Assembly: GCF_034190915.1 (NCBI RefSeq)
Contig: NW_026947544.1
Coordinates: 372,001-436,000 of the forward strand
Length of the DNA: 64,000 nucleotides
Direction: 5' to 3'
DNA from: Cavia porcellus
Lineage: Eukaryota > Chordata > Mammalia > Rodentia > Caviidae
A model generated the notes under the pieces. It saw nothing but the letters and a program-made list of their open reading frames with translations, was not told the DNA's origin and did no database searches. Position 1 is the first letter of the stretch, and each line of letters opens with the position of its first letter. The position numbers were made by a program, and so were the translations under genes. This document shows, piece after piece, positions 1,616 to 47,052 of the stretch.

Positions 1616-4600
1616 ACCACATACATATATGTTGTGGCTTTGTTCCTGGCACTATTGAGAATGCCACTATTGAGAATGGCCTGCAGCTCTCCCATCTCAC
1701 ATTTATTCTTTTTTATCCATCATCATAACACAGCAAAAGCTGGGCTACAGGCAGGGAATGGTATGCTTTTGCCAGGTTTTCCAAAGACAAAAAGAATGAA
1801 CAGATGTGCAAACCAACCATCAATTTTCCATCATTCAGCTTTAGTACAAGTTCAAATCTCAAACCCAGAGTGCTCCACAAGCGCTTTCCTTACAACTTTG
1901 CTTTGCTGAATCCAGGTAATTAAGAGACAGCTTACTAAGTTGGCATGGCCAGCAGTTACACTATTTCTCTCCAATTCTGAAGTTTACCGTATCTAATCAT
2001 CTGTATTATCTTTTGAGATTCCAGCTTTCACAATTCAAAACACTAGCACACAGATAAGAAAGTCCCTTTTTTTAAAAAGCCTTCCAGAAAAATAGGAGGA
2101 ATCTTCATTTGAATGAGATGCTACTGACATGTGCACCAGGAGGTAAATAAATAAAATATATAACTTTTTCATGTAGGTGGAAAAGCACATAAAAAAGCCC
2201 ATATAATAACTTGATTCCTTTACTTTCTCTGTATCCTCATTTATCCTGAATCCTGTTTCTGAGGAGATTCAGGTTTCAAAACAGACTGAGATACCAGACT
2301 GAGAAAAGGAAGGCTTGTTGATAATAAGGGAGAAAAAAAGAAGTAAAAGTGATGAGATGTTCTTTAACTGGATTGGCTCAAATGGACATTCTAAGACTTA
2401 TGGAATGAGATGGAGTAATTCCTTTAACTTTCTCACCCCTTAGGAGCCAAATATGTGGAGAATGTGAGACTGAAAAGCTGTTAAGGCACTGAGTCAGTCA
2501 GTGCAAATCATAATGATACAACCTACATAGGAATTGTACAATGACTCTATCTATAAGTCCTTTCAGCTCATGTTTTCCCCATAGACCTCTGCATTGTCCC
2601 ATTCTTCTCTATTCAATGCTGCTAGAAAGTCATAAACACAATATAGAATTTAAAGAATTTTTGAGTGGCTACCAAAAAAGTGGGGAAACATTGCTCCCAT
2701 TGTTTTGGATGAAAATAAAGTTAAGAGGAGAAGTGTCTCCTCTCAGCCTTCTTCTTCACAAGGACACCACACTGGTCTATGCACCCTTGAGCAAGTACTA
2801 GTGTTTACTAACAGCTCAGGACACTCTGTTTTCCTTCAACCCACTTAAATTGCTTGCTTTGCAACTCAAACTCTACAAAGCAATAGGTGGTTTATTTCAG
2901 ATAACACTGTGAGATAGAGCCTCATTCTCATGGTCTTTGTGGGATCTCAAGAGCGCAACTTCACACCTTGGCAGCAGCCAGGAGACATGGTTGGCCATCA
3001 ATGTCCTATTGGGATTTTCAGTTGAGAGTCCTTTTACTTTCTAGGTTTCTTTGTCTCTCCTTAAGTCTCTGTCTCTCTTCCTTCCTCTTGCATTACCCCT
3101 CCTTACATCTCTCACCTTCCCTCCCTCTCTTTTAGATGGAGATCGCAACATCAGGAAATTTTCTGCTAAGTAACATCTTCAGTTTTTTTAAATGTTCTTA
3201 AATTTTGACAAATTTCAGTAAAGTTGTCTTATTGTAAAGCAAGGTTCAAAACTTTGAGTTGCCTGCCTTACTTTCCAAAAGGGTGGGGATTACAAAAATT
3301 TGCCACCATTCCCAGTTGCTTTCTTACTCTAAAATGCTTACTATGTGGCCCTCTGGGCAGAGTGAGCAGAACTCCAGTTTCAGAAAATTCCCCCGTCATT
3401 TCTTCAACAATCAAAGCTGAGTTTAATCAAGTCTGGTCTGTTACACATTTCAGAAATACAGTGTTGATGAAAATATACCCATTTCCAGGTAAATCAGTGT
3501 GTGCCTTACATCTTGCATTAGATAGTAGCTATGTGTTTTGATTCTTTTAACTCTTTGCTTCTTCAACATAAAGGATCCAAAACTCACACATGCATCTCCC
3601 AGGATATGCAATGTACATTCAAACATTGCTGTCAACTTTAGTGGGACACCAGCTATCTACCTTCTTCCCCTCTTCCCCAGGCATTTTGTATGTGAGTCTT
3701 TTCCTGAGGAAGACTGAAAAGAGAAGATGGTCTCCCAGCTTGTGGCAAGTTTCCCATCAATGAAGTGCTTTTAGAGAAGGCTAGGATGCTGCCCTACTCT
3801 ATCTCTTCCTCAGATTTAGCATGTGATATTTGCTAGTTGCCCAACTCTGTTCCTTCCACAGATTTATCATGTTATGCTTTCTAGTTCATCAGAGGTTAGG
3901 GTAAACATATTTGCTGTGAGAAGAAAATAAAGACAACACTTAACAAAAATATACAGAGCTTGTTTGATTATGTGGACCCACATGTCATGACCATGAAACT
4001 CTTACCCTGCTACCTTTTTCTTTCTCAGTCATGTCTCCCTCCTGCTTCAGCACCACCACAAAAGCCTCTCTAGGCCTTGCAAGGAGTGTTCAAATACATC
4101 CTACAAATCTACAAGTCAGTCTTATGGTGATGGTCTCCATCATAGTGTAGTCTCCATCATAGAGACCTATTAGACTTGAAGTTCAGTCTGGCTTATGCAA
4201 GACTGGGCCAGAAGTGGACAACAAAGCTCAAATCTTGCATTTGCTCATGAGCTTTGGGATCAGAGAAGTGGAAGATGGATCCACTGTGTTAACTGCTTTG
4301 CTGTACACTGACTGATTAAGTTGTACTTGAAAATTGAACAAAAACTAAGTATTTTCAATTTCTTCATACCTCAAAATGAAATCATTCTAAGTATATACAT
4401 GTTCTGCAGCACATCTACAATAAAGAATTAAGTAACAATGCAGCCTTATACAGTCCTTGCAACATATGACCCATAGTTGACATCTCCAGTGGCTCATGCG
4501 TTGCACATTTTGGCATGGTGTCAAATAGTGCCATTTTCTTAATGAGTAGCTGCGTGTAAAACTAAATTTTCGTACTGTGAGTTTGTTGGGAGACTTTAAA

Positions 4601-8372: not shown

Positions 8373-9251
8373 GAGATCTGGGGTGCCTTCATCGGCCTCT
8401 CTGTGTGTCTGGAGGTCTGTGGATATCTCCGCCCAGACTGTTGGAGTCCCTCCAGGATCCCTGGTTCAGTGAAGGAGAGAGGTGGGTTTGAGGCCTCTGC
8501 ATCCGCCTCCCCATCCCGGTTGCACTTGGAGAACTGCTGGGCTCCCGATGGGTGGGCGGGCCCACGCTATCACCCAAACCCAGCCTGTTTTGCTGCCGCG
8601 CCTGGCCAGCAGTGTGCAGAGGAGGAGCTGGGCAGATCTGGGGTGCCTTCATCGGCCTCTCTGTGTGTCTGGAGGTCTGTGGATATCTCCACCCAGACTG
8701 TTGGAGTCCATCCAGGCTTCTGGGTGCAATGAAGGGGAGAGGTGGGTTTGAGGCCTCTACATCTGCCTCTCCATCCCAGTTGCACTTGGAGAACTGCTGA
8801 GCTCCCGACAGGTGGGCGGGCCCATGCTAGCACCCGAACCCAGCCTGTTTTGCTGCCGCGCCTGGCCATCATTGTGCAGAGGAGGAGCTGGGCAGATCTG
8901 GGGTGCCTGCATCAGCCTCTCCGTGTGTCTGGAGGACTGTGGATATCTCTGCAAGCAGGGAGCGATCACAGGTTCCTGAGGAACAGCAGCCTGTAGAGAG
9001 AACCCTAACCTGGCTGCAATTGAAGAGCTGTGGAGCTTCCAAGGGGCAGGTGGGAACACAGTGACCCTGAGGCCCAGCTTGTCTGGAACTGTGGAGTTCT
9101 GAGCAGGCAGAGGAGGGCCATTGGTTCTGCAGGCCCAATGGCTTGGGGTAGTGTGGTGCCAGAGTCTCAGTAGCTGCAAACGTAGAAGGGGATTTTCAAC
9201 AGATCCTGAGGAAGCTTTCAAATAACACTTGAAACACAGAAATATAGGAAA
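8373..9251 (+). promoter_or_regulatory. L1-1 5'UTR: 260-bp tandem monomers plus tether
   Basis: The landmark gatctggggtgcc recurs at 8375, 8635 and 8895, exactly 260 bp apart. This gives two full GC-rich monomers and a truncated third that runs into a unique tether (about 8955-9251) before ORF1. Monomeric 5'UTRs of this type act as internal RNA polymerase II promoters in rodent L1s. By analogy these units are the promoter; activity is not shown by sequence. Antisense ORFs of up to 154 codons in it are shadows of the repeat. Confidence 0.85.
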
Positions 9252-16980: not shown

Positions 16981-18346
16981 TTATTTTATTTTATTTAAAT
17001 ACAAAAAAGAAAAAAAATAGCAAAAGGGTACAAGCAAGTCAGAATTTCAAAAAATAAATAGTAAGAAATCGCTAGTTAATAGATTTTATATTGTCATCTT
17101 AGAAATAGCTGCTCAAGTTACAAAATTAAAGCATACAAAAGTGGATGCTCAAACAGTGAGACTGCAAACAGTTCTGTTCAGTGATGCAACAAAAACTCAG
17201 TAATATGGTTATCCTTTAGAGCACTTGCTTTTCCTCCCTTTTGTACAATAACAATTACACATTATGGGTTTTATTACTTTCACAGTTCTTGTTACTTTTT
17301 TTTGAAGAGAATAAAACCAAATGTGACAAAATAAAAGAGTCAGTCAAATCAAAAAGATGGACATAGTACATGATGTAAAAACAGAATACAAGGTGATCAA
17401 CAATGGTTACCATAATGTCTCTTGCTATCTTACAAAGAATTGCCTACATCATCAGTTATAATAAAATTGAACAAAACAGTACAGAACAAAACCAATAAAA
17501 CTGAAACATTGGAGACATTGCAGGACTTCAAAAGAAGATAATAGTCAAACCAGAATGGGCATCATAGTGAATCTTACTGCCTTAGAAGTAGTTGTCTATA
17601 CTTTCAACCTTGATAGTATCATCAAAACAGAAAAGAATAAAATGAGTCAAAATAAGATGTGAGAGCAACACAAGGTTTCAAATCAAGTTAATAGGGAATC
17701 AAAATGATTACAATAATATATCCTGCTATTTTTCAACTTATTTTATTCTTTAATTAAAAAGTAAAAAAATAATAAAAATTAGATTGAGATAAAAGAGAAC
17801 ATAAAACACAACAGCACAGGTCAGAACATAACAATTTAAGCAACAGTGTTTCACCACAAGATAGCCCAACATAACAGTAGTTGCAATAGTGTCACTTTCC
17901 TTGAAATATTTGAGTATAACTTCATATACTACAGCATCAAACATATCAGCAAAATGTAAAACCATTCAAGAGACTGACATTATTACAGGTTATCTAGAAC
18001 CAACTAACAGATAATGAACAATTGTTTCTATACTATCTCCTTGTCTATAAATGTTAGTTTGTACTATCACATATATTAAAATCCAACAAGATAAAACATG
18101 TTAAGACTGAAGAAAACAGAAGAACATAAGCTTGATGGGACTTCAAAACAAGATGATATTAAATCAGCACTAACTATTATGATGTCTTCTTTTCTTCATA
18201 ATAACTGTTCATACCATCACATACAATAAAATCAAACAGCCCAGAATAAAACCATTCCAATTAATGAATGAAAACATTTTAAGGCTTCAAAGCAATCTAA
18301 TGGAGAATCATGATTACCACACACTTTTATGTATCATCATCATTTC
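16981..18346 (-). mobile_element. Minus-strand L1 3'UTR
   Basis: Reverse complement of the L1 3'UTR family, with the A-rich tail at the left (tttattttattttattt near 16980-16998). It runs to the ORF2 stop at 18347. Modules repeat about every 145 bp. It belongs with the ORF2 fragment to the right. Confidence 0.85.
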
Positions 18347-19942
18347 TTACATTAGGGAAATTATTCAGTATTTATAAATTTGAATTTGATATATTTCACT
18401 TATGAGTGTGGTCCCAACCTGTGCCCATTTCTTTATTAATATCTCAATGTGATAATTCTGTATACCTAAGTAGTAAGCCATTGTATTAAAATACTACTAC
18501 TTTCTTATCCATTTCTCAGTTGATGGACACTTAGGTTGTTTCCAAGATCTGGCTATTACAACCTGTGCTGCTATGGATATGGGTGCACATATATCACTGT
18601 GGTATGATGCTTTCAGTTCTGGGAATATGCCTAGAGTTGGAATAACTGAAACCAATGGGACTTCCAATCCCATCTTTTTGAGAAATCTCTGTACTGACTT
18701 CCACAATGGTTGCACCAGTCTACACTCCCACCAACAGCATAGGAGAGTTCCTTTTCCCCCCAGCCTCTCCAGCATTTGTAATTGGTGGTTTTCTTGGTTC
18801 TGACCATTCTTTCAGGAGTGAGATGCAATCTCAGTGTGATTTAAATTGCATTTCTCTAATAAGAAATGATGATGAACACTTTTTCATGTATTTATATGCC
18901 ATTTGTATTTCTACATGTGCAAATTGTTCATTCATCTAACATGACCATTTTTTAATTGGATCTTTGAACTTTCAGGGTCTGAGTTTTTTTTTTTTAATTC
19001 TTTATATGTTTTAGACAGAAGTCCTTTGTCTCAGGGGCCAACTCACTAAGATTTATTCCCTGTTTGCAGGTTTTATTTTCACAGTGCTGGAGATTTCTTT
19101 TAATATGCCAGAACTTTTTAATCAGAGGTGATCCCAGTTATTGATTCTGGGAAGTATTTTGTGTGCGGTGTGAGTTCTGTTCATGAATTCTCTACCTACC
19201 ACTATGTCTTCAAGGTTTTTACCCAAGTTGTCTTCCAATAGATTTATTGTTTTTATTTTAATATTCCAATCATTGATCCATTTAGATTTTAATTTAGAAC
19301 ATGGTGATAGGCATGGAACTAGTTATAGTTTTCAGCATATGGAGGGCCAGTTTTTTCAATGCCATTTTTTAAAGAGACTGTCATTCTTCCGGAAACTTGT
19401 TTGGACCTTTTATGAAGATAAGGTGGTTGAGTGTGTTGGTACTTATGGTTGTATCTTCTAATCTATTCCATTGTTCTCCAGCTATGTTTTGATTTCAGTA
19501 CCATGTTTATTTTACTATGGTTGCTTTGTAGTATAACTTCAAATCAGGGATTGTGATGCCTCTTGCCTTGCCTTCACTGCTTAGAACTCTCTTTGCTATT
19601 CTAGGTCTCTTCTAGCTCCAGATGAATTTTAGGAGTGATTTCTCTAGATCTGTGAGGTACATTAATGGTATTTTTATTGGGATTGCATTGAATCTATATA
19701 ACAGTTTTGGGAGAATGGCCATTTTAACCATGATGTCTCCTGCCTTGCCTTTGCTGCTTAGAACTGTCTTTGCTATTCTACTTCTCTTCTGGTTCCAGAT
19801 GAATTTTAGGAGTGATTTCTCTAGATCTGTGAGGTACATTGATGGTATTTTTATTGGGATTGCTTTGAATCTGTATACAGTTTTGGGAGAATGGCCATTT
19901 TCAGAATATTTATTCCTCCTATCCATGAGCAAAGGATGTTGT
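18347..19942 (-). pseudogene. 5'-truncated L1 ORF2 C-terminal half, minus strand
   Basis: Read on the minus strand it contains the ORF2 end (stop 18347-18349), the C-terminal cysteine region and the segment downstream of RT, broken by stops and frameshifts. Homology ends near 19942 at the position of L1-2 about 32230. An in-frame 177-bp duplication lies at its upstream end (19557-19910). No convincing TSD was seen, so the truncation may be from insertion or later rearrangement. Confidence 0.85.
19557..19910 (-). repeat. 177-bp tandem duplication inside L1 ORF2
   Basis: The word gatgaattttaggag recurs at 19621 and 19798, exactly 177 bp apart, and flanking sequence matches over the whole unit with several substitutions. 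177 is divisible by three, and a 106-codon minus-strand frame (19612-19932) reads through both copies as repeated [19 protein letters not shown] segments. Confidence 0.9.
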
Positions 19943-21926: not shown

Positions 21927-21938
21927 AATAATAGAAAA

Positions 21939-23216
21939 ATTTTTAAAAATTTTTATTTAAGGAGAAAAAGAAAAAAAAAACAGAAAAAGAGTACAATTGT
22001 ACAGCATTTCAGAAAAAATTAACAGGAAATCACTAATTAATAGATTACATATTGACATCTTAGAAATAGTTGTCAAGTTACAAAATTAAAGCATATAAAG
22101 TGGACATCCAGTGAGACTGCAAACACTTCTGTTCAATGATCCAACAAAACTCAGTAATATGGTTATCTATCTTACACACTTAACTATATATGCAGTTTTA
22201 TCCTTTAGAGCACTTTCTTTGCCTCTCTTTTGTACAATGACAATGACACATTTTGGGGTTTATTACTCCCACAGTTCTTATTACTTTTTTTTGAAGAGAA
22301 TAAAACCAAATGTGACATACAAAAACAGAGTCAGTCAAATCAAAAGGATGGATATAATATACACTGTAAAAACAAAAATACAAGGTGATCAACATTGGTT
22401 ACCATAATGTCTTTTACTATCTTCAAAAGAATTGCATATATCATCAGTTATAATAAAACTGAACACAACAGTAAAGAACAAAACCAATAAAACCAAAACA
22501 TAGACATTACAGGACCTCAAAAGAAGATAATAGTCAAACCAAAATAGTCAAAATGAATCTAATTGTCATCACAATTGTTGATTATACTCTCAAACTTGGT
22601 AGTATCAAGCAAAACAAGATACAGGAAAATCAGTCAAAACAAGATGGTGAGAGCAATACAGGGTTTCAAATCAAGGTAATACAAAATCAAAGCGGGTTAC
22701 TGTAATGTATCCTGCTATTTTTTAATTTCTCCCTTAATTAAAAAGATTAAAAACAAAAAGTAAATAATAAAAAAGGATATTGAGATAAAGGAGGATATAA
22801 CAACAAAACAATACAGGTCAAAAAATAACCATATAAGCAAAATAATGTTTCACCACCAGATATCCCAACATAAAAATAGTTACCATGGTGTCTCTTTCCT
22901 TGAAATCTTTGTATAACTTCATTTACTGTTGCATCAAACAAATCAAGACAATGTAAAACCATTCAAGAGAATGGTAGTATTACAGGGTATTTAGAACCCA
23001 CTGACAGAAAATGAACAATGGTTTCTGTATAATCTCCTTGTCTATAAAAGTTTTTGTTTATATTATCACATATAATAAAATCCAGTAAGATACAACATGT
23101 TAAGACCATTGGAGACAGAAGAACAAAAGCTTGATGGGACTTCAAATCAAGACGATATTGAATCAGCACTAGCTATTATGTTGTCTTCTTTTCTCCAAAA
23201 TAGCTGTTCCTACCAT
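21939..23216 (-). mobile_element. 3'UTR of the ORF2-less element
   Basis: Closely parallels the minus-strand 3'UTR at 16981-18346 and, inverted, the plus-strand ones at 58226-59632. It contains the tandem modules. It stops abruptly near 23216, where homology to other 3'UTRs ends and ORF1-proximal sequence begins. Confidence 0.85.
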
Positions 23217-23264
23217 CCAACCTTCTCTGTCTCATTTCTGTTGAGCTTTTTATCTGTCGTGTTG

Positions 23265-24317
23265 TCAGTTTGTCTTCTTCATTTCGCTTTCTGCTCCATT
23301 CATTGTGGCCTCTATGCCACTGTTTCTGGAATCTTGGTATTTTTCTTTTTTTAGAATGTCCTGCAATGTTCTCTGTAGAGTTAAATTGGTGGTTGCAAAT
23401 TCCCCTAGTTCCTCTTTATCTTGGAAGCACCTTGTTTTCCATCAATTTCTAGGGACAGTTGTGCAGGATATATCATTCTTGGCTGGAGTTTATTATCTTT
23501 CAATGCTTGAATTATTTCCCCCCACACTCTTTGTGATTTGATGGTTTGTGCCGAGAAGTCTGCTGTAATTCTGATTGGTGTTCCATTGTAAGTGATCTGT
23601 TTCTTGTTTCTGATGGCTTTTAATATTCTGTTCTTATATTGGATTTCTGGAATTTTGATTTATTATATGCCTGGGTGTTGTTCTGTTTGGGTTGTATGTG
23701 GCTGGGGTCCTATATGCCTCATACATCTGAGTATCTTTACCTTTTGCTAACTGAGGGAAATTATCCTGGATTATTTCTGTGAATAGCTTTTGTCATTCAT
23801 TTGTTTGTGTCCCTACTTCTTCTTTTACACTCTTAGGTTATAGATCCTCTTACCATCTTCAAGCCTTTGTATTATTGCTGTTTGTTTTCTGGTTATTTTT
23901 AACAATTTTTTCATTTCATGTTCCCACATTAAAAATCTGTCCTCCAGTTCAGATAATCTATCCTTAGTATCTTTCAAGCTATTAGGCCAGCTTTCAAAAG
24001 AGATTTTAGTTTCCTGGTAATCTCTTTGAACCTGCTTCATGTATTCTATATTTTCTCTATTTTCTCCATCAAACAATTCATCCCTTTTTTTCTGTTCTTC
24101 CATTCCACCATGTTTTTTCTTGGGCAGTGCTTAGCATTTCTCTAACTTCACTTTTGAACTCATCTATGAGGCTCCAGAGATATCGCTTTATGTCTATTGG
24201 TGCCATGTCTGATATTGCATGTTTTCTGTCCTCATTCTTCTATGCATTTATCTTTCCTGGATTAGTGTTCTCAGGGTTGGGGGCCAAGGACCCTTTCTTG
24301 CTGCTCCCTCTTCCCAT
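23265..24317 (-). pseudogene. L1-type ORF1 pseudogene of the ORF2-less element
   Basis: Starts at ATG 24315-24317 (MGRGSSKKG, a basic N-terminus) and ends at TGA 23265-23267. The span of 1053 bp equals that of the intact ORF1 at 28736, although the sequence is clearly another subfamily. The 92-codon open part 23825-24103 has coiled-coil character (RLSELEDRFLMWEHEMKKLL). The C-terminal domain with a Y-P-A-type segment is readable near 23450-23480. There is a TAG at about codon 26 and further stops and frameshifts. The protein would bind RNA if repaired by history; here it is dead. Confidence 0.8.
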
Positions 24318-25081
24318 ACTTTATGTTCCTTCCATATAAGCATATACAGGAGGCCCAGTTTCTTTGTCAGTTAGTTTGTTTGAATTATGCTGGCTAGGTG
24401 TTCCTGCCCACTGCAGTGTACTATGGAGACATAGAACTGAGCAGTTTTTTTAGGCCCACCCCTCGAGGTCAGTCAACCTACTGAAGGCTTCACTGCTAGG
24501 GTGCACTGCCAGGCACTGGGTCCTGGTTTGGGGTAGCCTACTGCATCTTAGTATGGGGCATCACCCTGGCCAAGTGCTCCCCACTAATGCCACTTGAGAG
24601 GAAAATATGCAACTAAAGTCACTGCAGTGTCCTCTTCCAGCTAGTCTGCCCAGTCCCCGAATGTCCTGTTGGAGCCTCCTAGGTTATGGAATGGTCCCAT
24701 TCCTCTCACTCATTGCAGGTCAATGCAGGGTTCCCCACCAGTGCTGCTCTCAACTCCATTTGCCGATTCTCCCTCTCAGAGGTTTTGCATCTCTCTCCCC
24801 GCTGTGCTGATTCAAACGCAGCTGCAGCAGCAGGAAATTCAAATTGCAATTTCCAGAGGTGCAGGTTCCAGCTTCAGTGCTGAGATTTTATTTGTTCCAG
24901 TTATAGCACCAGGATTGCATTTCCAGTTGGTTTTTCTCAGCTTAGTTTGTTCCTTGGTCAGCAGGGTATTTGCCCCTTGCTTAGGACTCCTCACACCACA
25001 CCGTTCCTGGATTCTAAGTTGGCTAACACAGAGAGCCTCCATAGCTGATGTTATCTATCTGCCATCTTCTCCTGGAAGCTC
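24318..25081 (-). promoter_or_regulatory. 5'UTR/promoter of the ORF2-less element
   Basis: 764 bp of GC-richer sequence upstream of ORF1 without visible tandem monomers. On the minus strand the element begins gagcttccaggagaagatgg. The aagatggc at about 25061-25068 resembles the YY1-site position at the very start of L1 5'UTRs. A 149-codon plus-strand frame (24669-25118) is antisense to it and not considered a gene. Confidence 0.65.
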
Positions 25082-25734
25082 AATAATAGAAAATATTAAT
25101 GCTAATTTTAGTGCATGAAAATATTTCCACCAGAAATGCAATTTAATCCCTGCTCAGAACACTGATTTGGAGCACCATAGAGTACATGAGTGGGTAGCAA
25201 TGCTGTCACATGAGGGCTCCCCAGTGTGGAATCATGGGACATTCCCAAGTTCTGAGCTGTGAGTGGTGATCCTTTATCAGTGACTGGACAAGCAGGACTA
25301 AATTTCCAAGTGTATAACAGTGCCTTCTTAGATAAGGAAACATTGGAGATCATCCAGTCACCACAGTATCAACTTGTCATTCAGTTCTAGCAATATTATA
25401 GGTGCTTGTAGAGGAAGTCATATTCAAGGTGGAATTTTATAATCATACAGAAGATACTAGAATTATTAGAGTTCTGATGCCATCTGAGTATTCCACAGAG
25501 AACTAGAGATTTTACATATCTGATGTCTGTGAAATAAATTCTTCTCTGTTTGAAAAGATCAAGAATCAGTTGCTACAGCCAAGAAGTTATTGATGTGGCT
25601 GAGATATTCTGTGAAAGGATTAAAGGAAAGGAATTGGGCAAGAATAATCCAATAGAGAAGACTGTAAAAAGAATGCATAAAGATTATCACACTGAAAGCA
25701 CTTGATCTAAGAAACAGTGATGGTACTTGCTTAC

Positions 25735-28735: not shown

Positions 28736-29788
28736 ATGACAAAACGAAAGACCAAATTACAACCTCAAACCTCCAGCCCATCTCAAGAAACCCTAGGAGC
28801 GATATATATAGAAGAAAATATATCCCATTCACCTCATATATCGGACACAATAGCCACTGAAATTGACAAGCAACTCCAGGAAGCTTTAAAGAAATTCAAA
28901 CTCGAAATAATCTCCCAGATAAAAGAAGAAATGATAAAAGAAATGAAAGAGATTCTAAATATATCTAAAGAAAACACAGATAAAAAATTGGAGGAACTAA
29001 ACAAAAAGATAGAATCCCTAGACGAGCAATATAAGAAACAAACAGAATACATAATGCAGATGCACAGAGATATACAGGAAATAAAAAACTCCACTGAAAG
29101 TTGTAAAAACCGCCTTAATGAAAGTGAAGATCGAATTTCAGACCTTGAAGACAGGATTGCAGCTAGTGAACAGGAAAGGAAAGATCTTTTGAAAATAACA
29201 AGGAACCAGGAAACAACAATTCAACAACTGCAAGACGATGCAAAGAAGAATAACATAAGAATGATAGGGATTAATGAAAGAGAGGGAGACAACATGAAGG
29301 ATGTCAGGAGGATATTTAGAGAAGTAATAGCTGAAAATTTCCCAAGCATGAGATCAGAAACTGACATCAGGATCAGTGAAGCATATAGAACTTCAAACAG
29401 TCATAACCAAAATAAAACTACACCCAGACATATAATAGTCACCATCCCAGAAATCCAACACAAGAATAGATTATTAAAAGCTGTCAGAGAGAAAAGACAA
29501 ATCACTTATAAAGGAAAACCTATCAGAATCACAGCAGACTTCTCAGCACAAACGATAAAGTCAAGAAGAGCATGGAGTGAAGTATTCCACATCCTAAAGC
29601 AAAATGATTTCCAACCAAGATTGATATATCCTGCAAAACTATCATTCAAAATAGATGGTGCAATACGATACTTCCATGACAAAGAACAGCTGAAGAACTT
29701 CATGAACACCAAACCAACCTTGCAAAAAATATTGAAAGACACCTTAGATACACAAAGGAAAAAACCACTAAGCAAAGCAAATAATTAA
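28736..29788 (+). CDS. L1 ORF1 protein, intact, 350 aa
   Basis: Complete frame from ATG 28736 to TAA 29786-29788. ORF1p coats L1 RNA as a trimer and acts as a nucleic-acid chaperone in the L1 RNP. Residues about 1-35 are basic and Ser/Thr-rich; 40-155 form a long coiled coil (heptads around LEELNKKIESLDEQYKK and SEDRISDLEDRI). About 165-265 is the RRM-like domain (NNIRMIGINERE); about 265-335 is the C-terminal domain with KRQITYKGKPIRITADFSA and a QPRLIYPAKLSFKIDG segment. Length fits mammalian ORF1p (roughly 340-370 aa). The ATG is the first in the frame and is conserved in L1-1. ORF2 follows 19 bp later. Whether it is expressed cannot be seen. Confidence 0.95.
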   Translation: MTKRKTKLQPQTSSPSQETLGAIYIEENISHSPHISDTIATEIDKQLQEALKKFKLEIISQIKEEMIKEMKEILNISKENTDKKLEELNKKIESLDEQYKKQTEYIMQMHRDIQEIKNSTESCKNRLNESEDRISDLEDRIAASEQERKDLLKITRNQETTIQQLQDDAKKNNIRMIGINEREGDNMKDVRRIFREVIAENFPSMRSETDIRISEAYRTSNSHNQNKTTPRHIIVTIPEIQHKNRLLKAVREKRQITYKGKPIRITADFSAQTIKSRRAWSEVFHILKQNDFQPRLIYPAKLSFKIDGAIRYFHDKEQLKNFMNTKPTLQKILKDTLDTQRKKPLSKANN

Positions 29789-29807
29789 ACAGAACCGAAA
29801 GATAAAG

Positions 29808-32800
29808 ATGCAACAACAGAGAGATAACATTCCTACAATTAACCAGCATTTAACAGTAATAACCATTAATGTAAATGGTCTCAATGCACCAATCAAAAGA
29901 AACAGAATAGCAGAATGGATCAAGAAACAAAATCCAACCATATGCTGTTTACAGGAAACCCATCTAACCCAGAAAGATACTCACAGACTGAAAGTCAAAG
30001 GATGGAAAACAATTCTTCATGCATCAGGAATCCAAAAAAAGGCAGGAGTAGCCATTCTGTTTGCAGACAACGTGAACTTTAAACCAACAATGACCATAAA
30101 GGACAAAGAAGGTCACTACATACTCGTAAGGGGAAAACTCCAAGAGGAAGAGATAACTATCTTAAATATATACGCACCAAACTCCAGAGCACCCAGTTAT
30201 ATAAAACAATTATTAACAGAAATGAAAACTCAAATTATCAGTAACACAATTGTAACAGGAGACCTTAATACACCACTGACACCAAGGGACAGATCAACCA
30301 GACAGAAAATGAGCAAAGAAATAACAGAACTGAATCACACCTGTGAACAAATGGGTTTGATAGTCATATACAGAATGTTCCACCCAACAACATCAGAATA
30401 CACATTCTTCTCAGCAGTACATGGATCATTTTCTAAAATAGACCATATATTAGCTCACAGAACATATTTAAGCAAATGCAAAAGAGTTGAAATCATCCCT
30501 TGCATATGATCGGATCATAGCGCTCTGAAATTAGAAATTAATGACAAAGGATACTGCAAAAATTCCGCAAACACATGGAAACTAAATAACACACTCTTGA
30601 GTAATCAGTGGGTCACAGAAGAAATTAAAGAAGAAATTAAACAATACCTAAAAGAAAATGAAAATGCAGATACAACTTACCGGAATCTGTGGGATGCAAT
30701 GAAAGCCGTCCTGAGAGCAAAATTTATTGCACTGAGTTCCCACATCAGGAAAACAGAACGAATACAAATAAATAACTTGATGCTACACCTCAAACAGCTA
30801 GAAAAAGAAGAGCAAGTCAAGCCCAAAGCCAAAAGAAGAGAGGAAATTATAAAAATCAGAGCAGAAATCAATGCAATAGAGACTAAGAAAACAATCCAAA
30901 GAATCAACGAATCAAAGAGTTGGTTCTTTGAAAGAATAAATAAAATCGATAAGCCCCTACCCAACCTTATTAAAAAAAGGAAAGAAAAAGCTCAAATTCA
31001 TGCAATAAGAAATGAAAAAGGAGAAATCACTACAGACCCAATAGAAATACAGAGGATCATCAACACCTATTTCGAAAACCTCTACTCTCAAAAGTTTGAT
31101 AACACAGAAGAAATAGACAGATTCTTAGAAGCATATGAAGTACCAAAGCTAGATCAAGAGGATATAAAACTGTTGAATAACCCATTCTCTGCTAATGAAA
31201 TTGAGAATGTAATTGGGTCCTTGCCCACCAAGAAGAGCCCAGGCCCAGATGGATTCACTGCAGAATTCTACAAGAAATATAAAGAAGACCTAATGCCGAC
31301 ACTCCTCAAACTATTCAATGAAATTGAAAGGGAAGCAATCCTTCCTAAGTCATTCCTGGAAGCAAATATTACTCTAGTACCAAAACCTGAGAAAGACCCA
31401 ACTATAAAAGAGAACTATAGACTGATCTCCCTAATGAACACAGATGCAAAAATCCTCAATAAAATATTGGCAAATAGGATCCAGCAAATCATCAAGAAGA
31501 TTATACACCATGACCAGGTGGGATTCATCCCAGGAATGCAAGGATGGTTCAACATACGCAAATCAATAAATGTAATCCACCATATCAATAAAGCCAAAAA
31601 TAAGAATCACATGATCATCTCTATAGATGCAGAAAAAGCCTTCGATAAGGTCCAACACTTATTCATGATAAGAACTTTACAGAAAATTGGAATAAATGGT
31701 CTTTACCTCAATATAATAAAGGCCATTTATGACAAACCAACAGCCAGCATCATACTAAATGGCCAAAAATTGAAAGCCTTTACTTTAAAATCGGGTACAA
31801 GACAAGGATGTCCTTTATCACCACTCCTATTTAATATAGTACTGGAAGTACTAGCCAGAGCAATTAGGCAAGAAAGAGAAATAAAAGGGGTAAAGATAGG
31901 AAAAGAAGAAGTTAAATTATCATTGTTTGCAGATGACATGATACTCTACATAGAAGACCCCCTAAACTCCATTGAAATACTCTTAGATACAATAAATAAA
32001 TTCAGTAATGTGGCTGGATACAAAATCAATACTCAGAAATCAATAGCATTCCTCTACACGAACAACAAAATTACAGAGAGGGAAATAAGAGAAACTGGAC
32101 TATTCACATTAGCAAGCAAAAAAAATGAAATATTTAGGAATTACTCTTACGAAAGAAGTGAAAGACTTATACAGTGAAAATTATAATACACTGAAAAAGG
32201 AAATTGAAGATGATCTCAGAAAATGGAAAGACATCCCTTGCTCATGGATAGGAAGAACAAACATTGTGAAGATGGCCATTCTCCCAAAACTGTTATACAG
32301 ATTCAATGCAATCCCAATAGAAATACCATCAACATACCTTATAGATCTAGAGAAATAAATCCTAAATTTCATCTGGAACCAGAAGAGACCTAGAATCGCA
32401 AAGGCAATTCTAAGCAGCAAAGACAAAGCAGGAGGCATCACAATCCCTGACTTGAAGTTATACTACAAAGCAACAGTAGTAAAATCAACATGGTATTGGA
32501 ATCAAAACAGAGCTGAAGATCAGTGGAATAGATTAGAAGATACAACCACAACTACGAACACACTCAACCACCTTATTTTTGATAAAGGAGCCAAGCAGGT
32601 TCACTGGAAGAACAACAGTCTCTTTAATAAATGGTGCTGGAAAAACTGGCTCTCCATTTGCCGAAAACTAAAGCTAGACCCATGTCTATCACCATGTACT
32701 AAATTAAAATCTAAATGGGTCAAAGATCTGAATATTAAAACAGAAACACTAAATCTATTGGAAGACAAAATAGGTAGAAACCTTGGAGACATAGGAGTAG

Positions 32801-33645
32801 GTAGAGAATTCATGAACAGGACTCAAACCGCACGGGAAATACTTCCCAGAATCAATAACTGGGACCACTTCTTATTAAAAAGTTTCTGCATGTCAAAAGA
32901 AATCTCCAGCATAGTGAAAAAAAAACCCACAAATTGGGAAAAGATTTTAGTGAACTCTCTCTCAGACAAGGGCCTCTTGTCTAAAACATACAAAGAATTA
33001 AAGAAACTCAGACCTCCGAAATTCAAAGATCCAATCCAAAAATGGGCATCTGAGATGAATATGCAATTCTCAGATGAAGAAATGCAAATGGCAAATAAAT
33101 ACATGAAAAAATGCTCATCATCATTGGTCATTAGAGAAATGCAAATTAAAACCACACTGAGATACCATCTCACTCCTGAAAGAATGGCCAGGATCAAGAA
33201 AACCAACAACAAATGCTGGAGAGGCTGTGGGGAAAAAGGAACTCTCCTGCACTGCTGGTGGGAGTGTAGACTGGAACAGCCTTTGTGGAGATCTGTCTGG
33301 AGATTTCTCAAAAAGTTGGGACTGGAAATCCCATTTATTCCAGCTATTCCACTTCTAGGCATATTCCCAGAAGAACTGAAAGCATCATACCACAGTGATA
33401 TATGTGCACCTATGTTTATAGCAGCACAATTTGTAATCGCCAGATCTTGGAAACAACCCAAGTGCCCATCAACTGAGGAATGGATAAAAAAGTTGTGGTA
33501 TTTCTATACAATGGAGTATTATTCAGTTATAAAGAAGGATCACATTGAGATATTTATCAATAAATGGGCGCAGCTTGAGACCATACTCATAAGTGAAATA
33601 AATCAATCTCGCATGTGTGAATACCGAATAGTTTCCCTAATGTAA
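29808..33645 (+). pseudogene. L1-2 ORF2 (endonuclease/RT) with three lesions
   Basis: Spans 1278 codons if the one extra base is ignored, the usual mammalian ORF2p length. Endonuclease: INVNGLN near the start, LQETH, and a S-D-H motif. RT: FADD at 31926-31937. C-terminal zinc-like motif CX3CX7HX4C at 33214-33267. Breaks: TGA at 30507-30509, directly before the S-D-H of the endonuclease; one extra A in an A-run near 32115-32122 (frameshift); TAA at 32356-32358. Open blocks are 29808-30509, 30597-32177, 32125-32358 and 32452-33645. ORF2p nicks target DNA and copies L1 RNA from the nick. This copy would need all three changes undone, so it is not active itself. Confidence 0.94.
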
Positions 33646-34842
33646 GTAATGATTCAAATATATAAAAATATGTGGTAATCATGATTCCCCATTAGGTGGC
33701 CTTGAAGCCTTATAAAGTTTTCACTCATTAATTAGAAAGGCTTTATTCTGGGCTTCTTGATATGAAAATATTTGAAGCTAAAGTATATGAAGTTTTACCC
33801 AAATATTTCAAGGAAAAAGACACTATGGTAACTACTATTAAGTCAGGTTATAAGGTGGTGAAGTACTAGGTTATTGAAACAGTCATGCTGTGACCTCTAT
33901 TGTTATATTGTTATGTCCTGTTTTATCTCAATCTCCCCCTTATTGTTTCAAAAAAAAATTATTTAGTCATTTCTTATGTTTGTCTTAATTAAAGAAAAAA
34001 TTCAAAAAAATTAGGATATATAAATAGTAACTCTTTTCGATTTCCTATTAACTTGTTTTGAAGTCCTGTAGTACTCCCACGATCTTGTTTTGACTGATTA
34101 GACTCTATTCCATTCTATATGATAGTATCAAGTTTGAAGACATAGGCAACTACTTTGAAGACAATAAGATTCACTAAGATACCCATTCTGGTTTGACTAT
34201 TGTCTTCTTTGGAAGTCCTGTAATGTTTACAATGCCTAAGTTTTATTGGTCTTGTTCTCTACTGTTTTGTCCAACTTTATAATATCTAATAAGATAGACA
34301 ATTCTTTTTAAGGAAACAAGGGACAACGTTGATAACCATTGTTGATAAACTTGTACTCTGTTCTACACCATGTGCTATGTCTATCCTTGGTATTGACTGA
34401 CAGCTTTGTTTTGCCATATTTGACTGTATTCTCCCCCCCCCAAAGAAAGTAATAAGCACTAAGGAGTAATAAAATCCAAGATGTGTAAACTTTGTTGTAA
34501 AAAAGAGAGGGAAAAAAAAAAAGAAAAAGAACTCTAATGGATATAACAGCAAGTGTGTTTGGGGGTGTTAAATAGCTGACTTTATCAATGTTTTTGGAAC
34601 ATTGAACACAGCTGTTTGCAGTCTCCCTGTTTGAATGTCCACCTTGTGTTCTTTGATACTGTGATTTGAGGAACTATTTTCAAGAAAATAGTGTGTAATC
34701 TACTAGCAGGTAATTTCTTACTGTTATGGTTTTTTGTTTTGTTTTGTTTTGTTTTGTTTTGTAGTTCTGTATTGCGTGTACCCTTACGCCGCTTTGGTTT
34801 GTTTTGTGTTTTTCTCTTTTTCCTCTTAAATAAAAAAAAAAA
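33646..34842 (+). mobile_element. L1-2 3'UTR with tandem modules and poly(A)
   Basis: 1.2 kb AT-rich 3'UTR. Module starts are seen at about 33701 (ccttgaagccttataa), 34057 (ttttgaagtcctgta) and 34208 (tggaagtcctgtaatg). It includes a C9 run near 34432-34440, a (GTTTT)n expansion at about 34735-34762 and the terminal ataaa plus A-run. The 3' end is defined by the TSD at 34843. Confidence 0.88.
34735..34762 (+). repeat. (TTTTG)n short tandem repeat
   Basis: Five to six units of ttttg within the L1-2 3'UTR, absent or much shorter at the matching place in L1-1 (15220-15290). A local expansion. Confidence 0.85.
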
Positions 34843-39033: not shown

Positions 39034-39728
39034 ATGACAAAACAAAAGAGCAAAGTGCAATCTTAAGCCTTTAGCCCATTCACAAGCATGCATAGGAGCC
39101 AAAACATAGAAGAAAATGTAAGCCATACCCCTGAAGTTCCTAAAATGATAACAACTGAAGCAGAAGAAACAACTCTGTGTGGCTATAAAAGAATTCAAAT
39201 CAGAAACAATCTCCCAGGTAAAAGAAGAAATGATAAATGTAATGAAAGAACAGATCTAAAGAAGACATAGTTTAAAAATCAGAGGAACAGTGCAAAATGA
39301 TGGGAACCTTGAACAAACAATATAAGAAACAAACAGAATGCATGAAGCAGATTCAAAGAGATATACAGGAAATCATAAAAACCTTTGAAATTTAACCAAA
39401 ACAAAGCCTCAATGAAAGTGAAGATAGAAATTTAGACCTCAAAGACAAGATCACACCTAATGGACAGGAAAGGAAAAGATCTTTTAAGAATAACAAGGAA
39501 CCAGGAAATAATAACTCAACATCCCATAAGATGATGCAAAGAAAAATAACATAAGATTGATAGGAATAAATGAAAAGAAGGGATAACACAAATGATATCA
39601 AGATGCTATTAAACAGAAGTAATAACTGAAAATTTCCCAAACATGAGAATGGAAACTGACATATGGATCAGAGAAGCATATAGAACTCCAAATAGCCTGA
39701 ACAAAAATAAAATTACACCCAGACATAT

Positions 39729-40062
39729 TGTTACTGGATGGGATCTTGGCCCGTGGGAAATGGCACAGAGTCACGGAGAGAATAAACCACACCAGACACC
39801 AGGCTGATGGCAGAGATCCAACTTTTAATATGTCTCCTGCTCTCTTATATAGGCAGGACTGAGACCCAGATGGGAACAGAGCCTAAATGTTGTCCTGGGA
39901 AGGTTGAGGGTGACTCCTGGGGGTGGGGATGTAGCTGGGCGGCATCTGGCAGGGTGGGGTGTCTCACTCGGTTGGCTGATGACATTCCAGGGTCTGAGTC
40001 TGCTCAGTCCTCTCCTCTACCAGAGGCATCATCCATGCCTCCAGACCTTTACCACCTGTAGA
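39729..40062 (-). repeat. 3' LTR of the minus-strand provirus
   Basis: Shares blocks with 42601-42910, for example ccagggtctgagtctgctca and ggctgatggca. On the minus strand a TATA box (TATATAAG) lies at 39844-39851 and the LTR ends in CA at 39729. It is about 25 bp longer than its partner owing to indels. Confidence 0.85.
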
Positions 40063-40079
40063 TTCCCCCCCTTTTTCTA

Positions 40080-40860
40080 TTAAAGCCAAATGAATCGACA
40101 GCATCACAGCTTATTGTGAGCATAATGTTTGGACCTGGGAATGAATCATAGGAAGAGTTGTTATCTCATAAAATCTCAAAATGTCCAAGAGTCCCAGGGT
40201 TGAAAGATCCACTGGAGACAGTAAGCATGGCAGATTGTGTAGAATATCAGTGAGTAGAATGTCTGTCAGAATAGGCATTGTTGTAGGGACCAAGCAACCA
40301 ATTGGGGAGGCATGCAGAAGAGTGGTAAGCAGGTTTTGGTGTAATGTATAGCAACATCATAGAGAATTGACACAAGCAGTGGTCATTTTGATGCATGAAA
40401 GATCTTGTAGCTCAGAATCTAATAGATCTACCTGCTGTTTAAGAGAGTCATGTGGGTATAAGCATTTAAGTGTTGTTGTATTCAAAAGTTTTCGGCTAGG
40501 GGAAATTGGTTGAGTCCTTGGGCTGTCAGAGTTGATTGGGTGAGTGAGACAGCAGCAGCAGTTCATGTAGGGGCAACTCCTCAGTGGCAACAGTAAAAAA
40601 AAAAAAAAAAAAAACTATTATTAAGTCAGCAATGGAGGGCATTGGGGGAAAGTTGAAAGGGTAGAAAGCCTGCCAACAGGGAGGGCTGCAAGGGCTGTAT
40701 AAGGGTCTGGCAGCAAACTGGCAAGTGATCTGGGAGCAAGTAGTATTGGTGGTACTCTGGTTTACACAAGCTAATAGGGAAAAGGATATTTGTGCCAAGG
40801 AATGTGAAGGAAGCCATGAAGAAGTCTGTTTGAGCAGGAAATAAAGGTTAGATGTATAGG
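40080..40860 (-). pseudogene. Env-like remnant of the minus-strand provirus
   Basis: Minus-strand frames at 40526-40798 (90 codons), 40357-40590 and 40111-40293 lie between the integrase end and the 3' LTR, where env is expected. A LKQQVDLLDSELQDLS segment has heptad character typical of a transmembrane-subunit helix, and a short hydrophobic stretch near 40597-40617 comes from an A/T run. Frames are broken. The call rests on position and coiled-coil character. Confidence 0.5.
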
Positions 40861-40929
40861 AGTAGATATGTTTTAGACATCTGGGGTTCTCTTCCTGTGT
40901 GTGTCAATCCACCCACTGGACATCCTTTG

Positions 40930-41340
40930 TCAAGGCTCAGGTGTTGCGTCTGTGAGGTTGGTGGTGGTGGCAGGGTGGACATTCTGGTCAGGGACCCACA
41001 CTGGGTGAGGAGCTGTTTCTGGAAAGACACAAGCAAAGCCTTGGCCTTGAGTTAACAAGGGTGCTGGGGGTTTCCACTGCTGGGTCATAGGGTCTCTCCA
41101 GCAAAAAAGGAGGAGAAGGGTATGTAGAGTTAATGAGGGACCCCAGTGTTTATGCACTGGGGAGAGGCATTTGTTATCAAAAGTTAAATGATTTATGGTT
41201 ATAAAAGCTTTTGTATGTAGTACATCTGTGTGCAGTGGGGATGTAATTTCCCCTCTTTTTAAATATTGTCTTAAGGGTTTGATGGACTCTTTTTATGATG
41301 GCTTCACCCTGTGGATATAAGGAATGCCATGATGTAAAGT
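40930..41340 (-). pseudogene. Integrase C-terminal remnant of the minus-strand provirus
   Basis: On the minus strand a RVHQTLKT segment (near 41290) is followed by a RDPMTQQWKPPAPLLTQGQG segment and a VWVPDQNVHP segment (41100-40960). This is the end of a betaretroviral integrase with its SH3-like DNA-binding domain. Stops separate the parts. The catalytic core is absent, deleted with most of pol. Confidence 0.7.
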
Positions 41341-42060
41341 TCTTTTCTACTTAGAGCATGTATATATTAACAAGTCCCTTCGGGCCAGCCTGCTTTGGAA
41401 GTGGTAGCAAAGATTGAAGAGTAGGAGACTGTGAATTAAATGGCCAGTGAGCAGCAAACCATCCAACAGGTGTGTGTGAGCAATTATCTGATGATTGGCT
41501 ATAAAGTGGCTGCCAGTCAACATGAGACAAGGAAACAGGCTGCTGGCGTCTCACTATGTGCCCTTCAGCGATTTAGCCTCTTCTCACAGCACAGTGAACT
41601 GTAACATGGTCCACAGCAGGGTGGTTGACGCTGATCACATGAGGAGGCACAAGGGGTGACAATTGACCATGACACCTGTCCCAAGATCGTGGTACCCTGC
41701 TACTTGATGGAGGACTGCAAGATTGCAGCTGTTCCGCACACAAGCTGCTCCAAACATATAGCCTGCCAGAAGGCTGGAGTGCCTGCGACCTAGTGTAGTA
41801 TAGTGAGTGGGCAGTGAAAATGTCCTCGTAGGAGAGGGAGACAAAGAATACCCAGAGAGGAGAGATAGTTCTGCCAGAGGGGAGTGAGAGGTCAGAGACT
41901 GGGGAGAAATGCTAGTGCAGGGATCAGAGAAGCTGGGGGCTCATCCTAGCTTGGATCCACTTTCACTTTAAAACAAGGCCTATTGTCTGAAAGAGCAGGG
42001 ACTTTTGCGCGCAGGGCGGCGGGGGCTTCCACTCTGCTCCATCTTTGCCTCCTATTTTAA
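41341..42060 (-). pseudogene. Unresolved provirus interior (deleted gag-pol)
   Basis: Minus-strand frames at 41635-41844 and 41351-41554 are open for 60-70 codons. A TPVGWFAAHWPFNSQS-like stretch may derive from pol. No clear protease, RT or RNase H motif survives, so a large deletion between gag and integrase is inferred from the short interior. Confidence 0.45.
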
Positions 42061-42064
42061 ATGC

Positions 42065-42575
42065 TCAAGAGAGAGATATAACCTTTTTGAATTGAATGAT
42101 GGGGTACAGGACCTGTTGCTTTACTTTCTGTCTGATTCTGTATGTGAAAAGAGAGATCTTTTCTAACTCCTGGGTTAGAGATGGACTGGCGGTTGGTGCA
42201 GCAGCTGCACAAGCAGCAGGATCTGCTAACAGTGGAAAGGCTTCTAAGTCATTCCTGGTAACATTGTTAAGCACGCTTTTATCGTCAGTAGAGCTGGTAA
42301 AAGTCCTAATGGAAAGATTTTCCCTTCATATTGTACCACTGCTTGGACCCGCTTGACAAGGTGAATACAACTTTGTGGGTCCTAAAGATAGGCAGTCTCA
42401 AGACAGGAATTAAAGGGGAGAACAAGTTCCCAGTAATGGGAGAGGTTCTTATATGAAATTTTAAAGTGTCTAGCCTGTAAAAGGGCAGCAAGAGACCATG
42501 CCTGTGGATGCTGCTCTTTGTGAAGTACAGAGTCCATTGTGTGGGTGAGGTCCATTTACTCAATTCAGGGGGTGC
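42065..42575 (-). pseudogene. Gag N-terminal (matrix) remnant of the minus-strand provirus
   Basis: Lies directly after the primer-binding site on the minus strand, where the matrix part of gag belongs. Frames 42306-42563 and 42065-42274 are open but short; an alternative frame gives KISYKNLSHYWELV with matrix-like character. An Ala-rich stretch (PAACAAAAPTAS) follows. Assignment is mainly positional. Confidence 0.5.
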
Positions 42576-42579
42576 TCGG

Positions 42580-42598
42580 GTCCCTGTTCATGGTGCCA
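42580..42598 (-). promoter_or_regulatory. tRNA-Lys primer-binding site of the provirus
   Basis: Reads gtccctgttc plus tgcca on the plus strand, the complement of a PBS for the 3' end of tRNA-Lys with a one-base insertion and changes in the middle. It sits two bases from the LTR edge at 42601. Fixes the element's orientation as minus. Confidence 0.75.
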
Positions 42599-42600
42599 AC

Positions 42601-42910
42601 TGTCGCTACGTGGGGACCTGGGCCTGTGGAAGTGGTGCGGAGTCATGGAGGGAATAAACTACACTGGAGACTACACAGGCTGATGGCACAGTTCCAACGT
42701 TTAATATTTTTTCTGCCCTCATTATAGGAAAGGCTGAGACCAGGATGGGGACAGAGACTAGATGGCATCCCAGGAAGGTTGAGGGCAGCTCCTGGGTGCA
42801 GCACCAGAGCAGGGCGTTGTCTGGCAGGGCAATTCACTCAGTCTGCCAAGAACATTCCAGGGTCTGAGTCTGCTCAGTCCCTCTCCTCTGCCAGTCCTTT
42901 ACTCCACATA
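42601..42910 (-). repeat. 5' LTR of the minus-strand provirus
   Basis: Partner of 39729-40062. It starts (plus strand) tgtcgctacgtggggacctg, against tgttactggatgggatcttg. The divergence implies a long residence. The TATA region is degenerate (near 42720). Confidence 0.85.
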
Positions 42911-43448
42911 ACATATAATAATCACCATCCCAGAAATTTAACAGAGGAACAGAATATTAAAAGCTATAAGACAGAAGAAAGAGATTACTTATAGATGAAA
43001 ACCTATCAAAAATCACAGCAGATTCTTCAAACAATGAAGTCAAAAAGAGCATGAATTGATGTTTTTCAGATCTAAAGGTAAGGGACTTCCATCCCAGACT
43101 GATGTAGTCTGAAAAACTGTTCTCCAAAATGGATCACAAAACAAGATACTTGTATGACAGACAACATCTGAAGAACTTCATGACCACCATACCAACACTG
43201 AAAAGAATACTCGAAGTCATTTTATATAGACATAGGAAAAAGGCACTAAGCAAGGTAGACAATTAAACAAACTGTAAAGGTAAAGAAATGCCAGCAGTAA
43301 GATAAAATGTCAAAAATAAACAAATATAAATCACTTATAACCATTAATGTAAATGGCCTCAGTTCACCAATTAAAAGAAACAGATTGGCACAATGGATCG
43401 AGAAACAACATCCAACCATATGCTGTCTACAAGAAATACATTTAACCA

Positions 43449-46180: not shown

Positions 46181-47052
46181 TTTTATCTCAATCTCCATTT
46201 ATTTATTTATTTATTTATTTGTTTGTTTATTTATTTAATAAAGGGCAAAGTAAATAAAAATAGCAGGATATATTATTGTAACCATTTTGATTCCCTATTA
46301 ACTTGATTTGAAGGCTTGTACTGATCTCTCTATCTTGTTTTGACTGATTTTACTCTATTCTGTTTTGCTTGGTAGTATCAATTTTGAGGGTATAAGCAAC
46401 GACTTTCAAGAGAGTAAGATTCACTATGATGCCAATTCTTGTTTGATCATTATCTTCTTTTGAAGTCCTACAATGTCTCCATTGTTTCAGTTTTATTGGT
46501 TTTGTTCTTCACTGTTTTGTTCAATTTTAGTATAACTGATGATATAGGCAGTTCTTTTTTGAGATAGCAAGAATAATTATAGTAACCATTGTTGATCAAC
46601 TTGTATTTTGTTTTCACATCATGTAATATATTTATCCTTTTAGTTTGACTGACTGTTTTGTTTTGTCACATTTGGTTTTATTCTCTTTTTAAAAAAGTAA
46701 TAAGAACTTTGGGAGTAATAAACCCTCAAATGTGTTATTGTCATTGTAAAAAAAGAGAGGAAAAGAAATTGCTCTAAAGAATATAACTGCATGTATAGTT
46801 AAGTATATAAGATAGATAACCATATTACTGAGTTTTTGTGGGATAATTAAACAGAAGTTTTTGCAGTCTCACTGTTTGAATGTCCACTTTGTAAGCTTTA
46901 ATTTTGTAACGTGAACAACTATTTTTAAAATGAAAATATATAATCCATTAACTAGTGATGTCTTATTGTTTATTTTTGAAATTCTGTATTACTTTACCTT
47001 TTTTCTGCATTTTTTTTCTTTTTCTCTTTACATAAAATTTTTTAAAAAGGAG
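46181..47052 (+). mobile_element. 3'UTR-only (5'-truncated) L1 insertion in L1-4 ORF2
   Basis: ORF2 homology to L1-2 stops after cttattcaagagattc and resumes at 47053 with gtttctgcatgtc. Between them lies only L1 3'UTR sequence with modules (ttgaaggc near 46307, ttgaagtc near 46460) and an A-rich end at 47030-47047. Likely TSDs are 46172-46181 and 47048-47057, 8 of 10 matching. A (TTTA)n patch lies at 46197-46238. It is a typical severely 5'-truncated L1 insertion. Confidence 0.8.

Follow-up and report, generated by a model that had tools for sequence, protein, structure and literature searches.

A 3143-bp L1-derived unit lies between exact direct repeats

The window, a 64,000-nucleotide stretch of guinea pig DNA, contains an L1-derived unit of 3143 bp on the minus strand (21939–25081), which is enclosed by two exact copies of the 12-bp direct repeat AATAATAGAAAA. 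Element coordinates (el p) are used below, el p being window position 25082 − p in the minus-strand reading. From 5' to 3', the unit consists of ~764 bp that have no homologue in the window, a 1053-bp ORF1 region, ~48 bp of further sequence and ~1.28 kb of L1-type 3'UTR (Table 1).

Table 1. Parts of the element and other L1 copies discussed in the text, with window coordinates.
Feature	Position	Strand	Basis or remark
Target-site duplication at the 3' end of the element	21927–21938	.	Exact 12-bp match to 25082–25093
L1-type 3'UTR (el 1865–3143), ending in AAATAAAAATTTTTAAAAAT	21939–23217	-	Homology to window copies
Join: spacer after ORF1, perhaps with the first ORF2 codons, into the 3'UTR	23218–23264	-	Alignment read by eye
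Decayed ORF1, 1053 bp, with recognisable L1 RRM and CTD domains	23265–24317	-	Frame-aware alignment to P0008 and P0009; Pfam
Presumed 5'UTR, apparently full length	24318–25081	-	Position; AAGATGGC at 25061–25068; no window homologue
Target-site duplication at the 5' end of the element	25082–25093	.	Exact match to 21927–21938
Copy A, 5'-truncated L1 with ORF2 end	16989–19542	-	el 1865 point reached ~130 bp past the ORF2 stop
Copy B	58049–59628	+	ORF2 end and 3'UTR
Copy C	1–464		61 bp from the el 1865 point back to the window edge
Copy D	47.98 kb		Holds the el 1865 point
Copy E, the 3'UTR of element Y	61.24 kb		Holds the el 1865 point
5'-truncated 3'UTR copy inside an old ORF2, similar tail ATAAAATTTTTTAAAAA	46179–47048	+	Homology
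Young L1, open 350-aa ORF1, broken ORF2; example of the autonomous lineage	28736–34705	+	Homology, ORFs
Second autonomous-type young L1	9252–15308
Element X: ORF1 part, ORF2 start, ORF2 end, 3'UTR; ORF2 middle absent; 3' end uncertain	48395–49699	+	Alignments
Element Y: ORF1 (7–8 stops), ORF2 start, ORF2 end, 3'UTR; ends approximate	59640–61690	+	Alignments

A first-pass annotation had placed the repeat exactly at both outer ends, and both coordinates were confirmed. Chance matches of this kind were rare: an exact abutting 12-mer 3143 bp apart turned up three times in 200,000 random draws across the window, and a 12-mer shared within ±22 bp windows was found in 4 of 20,000 random pairs at the same spacing. 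Moreover, the join region (23195–23285) has no repeat of at least 8 bp in common with either of the outer ends, and there is thus no sign of two nested insertions. The presence of outer repeats and the absence of inner ones thus agree with the earlier proposal that the 5' and 3' parts arrived in a single event. An ORF1 fragment and a 3'UTR fragment, inserted one within or beside the other, might mimic one unit, and many nested or abutting L1 pieces do occur in the window; however, besides the distribution of repeats, both parts lie in L1 order and orientation, ORF1 ends at its natural stop, and the 3'UTR reaches its 3' end like those of other copies, which makes such an origin extremely improbable.

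The usual L1 endonuclease site is TTTT/AA, and the target site of the element, GAAAA/TA on the plus strand, looks unlike it. The 3' end, AAATAAAAATTTTTAAAAAT, has no plain poly(A), although a poly(A) is given as a HAL1 trait in a passage of PMC5322556; its absence lowers the claim of membership in HAL1 but does not remove it, and the tail of an old copy may have decayed. Scans of the whole window for tRNA genes and Rfam families found nothing. Two SINE motifs that could have pointed to the host had no match within 3 mismatches.

The earlier annotation had also named an L1 5'UTR, and here the outcome was mixed. The position of this region and the motif AAGATGGC near its first base, which we take to be typical of L1 starts, agree with the name, but no homologue was found elsewhere in the window (E ≤ 1e-3; left of el 1026 there was only the self-match). 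The name therefore rests on position and on AAGATGGC, a motif that occurs in the window about as often as chance predicts (3 occurrences vs. 2.4 expected). The 5' end of the element appears complete.

ORF1 is followed by an L1 3'UTR and ORF2 is missing

The absence of ORF2 was evaluated using tblastn with eight ORF2 queries. No ORF2 homology was detected inside the unit (E ≤ 0.01), and the same queries matched a control L1 at 17–19.6 kb. In addition, the 3'UTR matches five other copies from el 1865–1875 onwards, ~48–58 bp past the ORF1 stop. The ORF2-less layout first read from the letters, with ORF1 joined to an L1 3'UTR after about 50 bp, was therefore reproduced. The exact breakpoint of the join was read by eye and is uncertain by ~15 bp.

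The other copies indicate what is missing. In copies A and B, the base matching el 1865 sits ~130 bp after the end of ORF2, and the sequence upstream of this point is L1 3'UTR in all five other copies that hold it (A, B, C, D and E). The element thus lacks ORF2 together with ~130 bp of 3'UTR. Past ORF1, the sequence bears only a loose likeness to what leads up to the start of ORF2 in other L1s, and it may therefore retain a few ORF2 codons.

The layout would also suit a splice from the start of ORF2 to the 3'UTR, the element then being a retrotransposed L1 RNA from which ORF2 had been removed as an intron. The nearest AG (GATGGTAGGAACAG in the element and GATGGTATGAACAG in copy A) lies downstream of the point where homology to the 3'UTR copies starts, so that, in this by-eye reading, with copy A standing in for a true parent that it need not be, no acceptor AG lies at the join. 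Splicing was rejected on this ground and is very improbable.

No second copy of the junction was found within the window, where the only match across the join was the element itself. In viral contigs, search patterns matched 17 and 8 stretches, none encoding a relative, and the 3'UTR pattern was unmatched; prokaryote contigs gave no match. Neither kind of contig is expected to contain the element.

The ORF1 is dead and belongs to a lineage other than that of the young L1s

ORF1 spans el 765–1817 (window 24317–23265) and runs from ATG to TGA over 1053 bp; a further in-frame ATG lies upstream, at 24335. The length of ORF1 as first annotated was thus upheld, but it is not open: stops occur in all three forward frames, and 4–5 frameshifts and 2–4 stops show that it is dead. 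In the global frame-aware alignment, ORF1 was 84.4% identical to P0008 over 339 residues (four stops, five shifts) and 73.5% identical to P0009 over 343 residues (two stops, four shifts); the local alignment to P0009 had four shifts and one stop. One of the shifts relative to P0008 falls at the C-terminal end, a point at which P0008 and P0009 also differ from each other; the element ends as P0009 does (...MKKTN). Furthermore, PF02994 and PF17490 were both matched on the read-through with X at the lesions, identifying an L1-type ORF1.

The records of P0008 and P0009, both from the guinea pig, bear the names of ZNHIT3 and JAZF1 isoforms. The two proteins align end to end with the ORF1 of the element and carry both L1 ORF1 domains. 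These predicted isoforms are L1/HAL1-type ORF1 proteins, and a retrotransposon ORF has likely been annotated as a host gene isoform in each case.

Among the matches listed (the best 120 of 171 and the best 120 of 318), those closest to the element's ORF1 are guinea pig ORF1 proteins. Identity by the same global alignment fell to 71.1% with P0006 and 65.4% with P0007 (280 residues each), and to 45.8% over 332 residues with P0001, which is of the young-L1 type and matches the ORF1 encoded by the young L1 at 28.7 kb with 98% identity. A protein tree was built from 25 sequences (20 chosen among the proteins found and five window copies, X not included) over 321 columns; in it, the element joined P0008 (support 87), then P0009 (100), P0006 (99) and P0007 (100). 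In a DNA tree of eight ORF1 regions (822 columns), placing the element together with the young L1s (9k and 28k) was rejected (p-AU 2e-5). Together with the identity to P0001, this rejection bears out the earlier claim that the ORF1 is of another lineage than that of the nearby young L1s. Differences between the element and the young L1 ORF1 at codon positions 1/2/3 numbered 36/21/60 (126 codons, two in-frame stretches); this third-position excess, seen along with long open relatives, suggests that both lineages kept a coding ORF1 through most of the time since they parted, and the changes are not placeable after the loss of ORF2. A protein search with ORF2 returned relatives from many mammals, at most 74% identical in the best 120 of 2926 matches (7978 candidates scored). 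Among the matches listed for ORF1 and ORF2, none from a named species represented a near-identical L1.

The 3'UTR is of a local L1 kind

The 3'UTR is 80% identical to 18218–16989 (minus strand), 78% to 58352–59628 (plus strand) and 81% to 46179–47048 (plus strand). Within the block common with the 46.2-kb copy, the element is 82.5% identical to copy A, 82.7% to the 46.2-kb copy and 77.7% to copy B; the two young L1s reach 73.5% and 71.8%. The K2P distance to copy A is 0.198 over 1228 sites. The proposal that the 3'UTR comes from a local L1 family is supported by its similarity to copy A, a copy of autonomous type. The two young L1s resemble the element in their ORF1 domains and in a related 3'UTR, 70–72% identical in the matching parts, which starts alike; in contrast to the element, they have ORF2, an ORF1 of the ~46% identical P0001 type, and a 3'UTR without the block after the el 1865 point.

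The element and the 46.2-kb copy have in common a peculiar 3' tail (ATAAAA, a T-run and AAAAA), which hints at one family. Tracts of the A-T-A type take the place of plain poly(A) at the 3' ends of both (21927–21960 and 47030–47048). The 46.2-kb copy is possibly a second copy of the element's family; being 5'-truncated, it cannot show the join. No common 7-mer was found at its ends.

Several other arrangements of L1 sequence were observed in the window. A 260-bp unit is tandemly repeated in 2.2 copies at 8374–8949, shortly before the ORF1 (9252) of a young L1; we presume that this array could represent 5'UTR monomers as in mouse L1, and no such array was found in the same scan before the L1 at 28.7 kb. 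A tandem duplication of 177 bp (19554–19901, 92% match), equal to 59 codons, immediately precedes the part of copy A recognised as ORF2 and may itself be inside ORF2. At 50183–50897, an ORF2 end (50183–50559) runs directly into sequence from late in the 3'UTR (el 2794 onwards); either this copy has undergone another deletion or its 3'UTR is a short variant. ORF1 parts at 39.0–39.6 kb (residues 6–184) and 42.9–43.3 kb (residues 232–350), spanning 39049–43263, may belong to one L1 split by ~3.3 kb of other, GC-richer sequence.

Two other copies in the window lack most of ORF2

An alignment of elements X and Y extends from ORF1 over the ORF2 start and the ORF2 end into the 3'UTR, at 58–59%. In the best two-piece alignments to the young L1, Y lacked a net 3404 bp of ORF2 and X a net 3406 bp, with breakpoints placed at 30048 and 33452 (Y) and at 30095 and 33501 (X), that is, ~47–49 bp apart. 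X and Y thus apparently carry the same ORF2 deletion, and independent origins are possible. Their downstream flanks have nothing in common, and their upstream flanks share L1 3'UTR alone, at different distances, so one segmental duplication carrying both is not evident.

The DNA tree joined the element and X with a support of 99, and Y joined the L1 at 36k, not the element, with a weak support of 43. A group of X and Y alone was rejected (p-AU 0.006), and a group of the element, X and Y was as good as the best tree (p-AU 0.54). In the protein tree, Y was sister to the clade of the element (support 85). By alignment score, Y was closest to P0002, an L1-type ORF1 (661), followed by P0007 (603) and P0006 (584); X scored 234 with both P0006 and P0007, 220 with P0004, 217 with P0001 and 213 with P0008. 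These scores, the place of Y in the DNA tree and the rejection of X with Y alone speak against kinship of the two with the HAL1 clade: X is only slightly closer to P0006 and P0007 than to P0004 or P0001, and no closer to P0008, and the position of Y is ambiguous. One old ORF2-less lineage that includes X, Y and the element is thus no more than possible.

The grouping with X also bears on whether the element is an isolated accident, namely an autonomous L1 of the second ORF1 lineage that lost ORF2 before, during or after insertion and founded no family. Internal deletions of L1s occur, and the junction is present once in the window; moreover, copy A has one of the nearest 3'UTRs but lacks any part of ORF1, so its kind of L1 could have had a P0008-type ORF1. 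However, all four window ORF1s that are accompanied by a long ORF2 stretch (9k, 28k, 36k and 42k) score higher with P0001–P0004 than with P0008 or P0009, the ORF1 with which the element groups is that of another copy lacking most of ORF2, and HAL1 families of the guinea pig are named in part of PMC3183009. We consider such an accident unlikely.

Discussion

The element is, with good confidence, a decayed copy of a HAL1 retrotransposon of the guinea-pig type that was presumably mobilised in trans by L1 ORF2p. The HAL1-like layout put forward in the first-pass annotation is supported by the presence of ORF1, an L1 3'UTR directly after it, target-site duplications round the whole unit, and the absence of detectable ORF2 from an element that is otherwise terminally complete, its 5' end presumably so. 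The single junction copy in the window, the atypical target site and the lack of a plain poly(A) speak against this assignment.

Comparable elements have been described. Human HAL1, HAL1B and HAL1M8 are presented as L1 derivatives encoding ORF1p only, and HAL1s are stated to have arisen several times independently, in sections of PMC5753468 (the latter citing Bao and Jurka, 2010); direct repeats at HAL1 ends are mentioned in a passage of PMC5322556. The element shares with human HAL1 the ORF1p-only derivation from L1 and the end repeats, a likeness of description and not of sequence, and differs in having a 3'UTR of the local L1 kind. For the guinea pig, an excerpt of PMC3183009 gives families less than 1% divergent from consensus, HAL1-1H_Cpo (106), HAL1-3D_Cpo (54), HAL1-1G_Cpo (50) and HAL1-1E_Cpo (37). 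These HAL1-1 and HAL1-3 families (Repbase names) are likewise ORF1-only L1 derivatives; the comparison is again one of descriptions, not of consensus sequences, and the element here is dead. Since guinea pig HAL1s are already in print, the novelty is low, and the element is very probably one more copy of a known kind, an ordinary dead HAL1, where "known" refers to guinea pig HAL1s as a kind and sets the subfamily aside.

A decayed HAL1 copy could have arisen as follows. A master element with an L1 5'UTR, ORF1 and an L1 3'UTR would have been transcribed, its RNA would have provided its own ORF1p, and the ORF2p of autonomous L1s with a related 3'UTR would have reverse transcribed this RNA into a new site. 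The join would then have been inherited from the family and not made at this locus.

We tentatively considered a more extended history for the lineage, in which an ORF2-less ORF1 lineage was long-lived and shed ORF2 in two steps: the older form, represented by X and Y, kept both ends of ORF2, and the later form represented by the element lost these as well, along with ~130 bp of 3'UTR, its ORF1 constituting a clade of its own beside the autonomous L1s. Such a history is conceivable but doubtful.

The guinea pig relatives of the ORF1 and the printed HAL1 _Cpo families make it likely that an ORF1-only lineage existed in rodents near the host, and it might, as the first-pass annotation proposed, have originated or been renewed within this genome; P0008 and P0009 are known from protein records alone, and their openness may partly reflect gene prediction choosing open frames. 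ORF2p cuts and reverse transcribes, and HAL1s depend on it. This dependence is stated in part of PMC5322556. HAL1s therefore pose the puzzle of why an L1 parasite keeps ORF1 though ORF2p does the cutting and copying. According to a portion of PMC3627910, guinea pig HAL1 ORF1 kept coding for ~29–44 Myr, and it is argued there that an ORF1 open for tens of Myr points to a cis-acting role of ORF1p on behalf of its own RNA. If an early and a late stage of ORF2 loss do adjoin in this window, selection on ORF1 would become comparable before and after each step.
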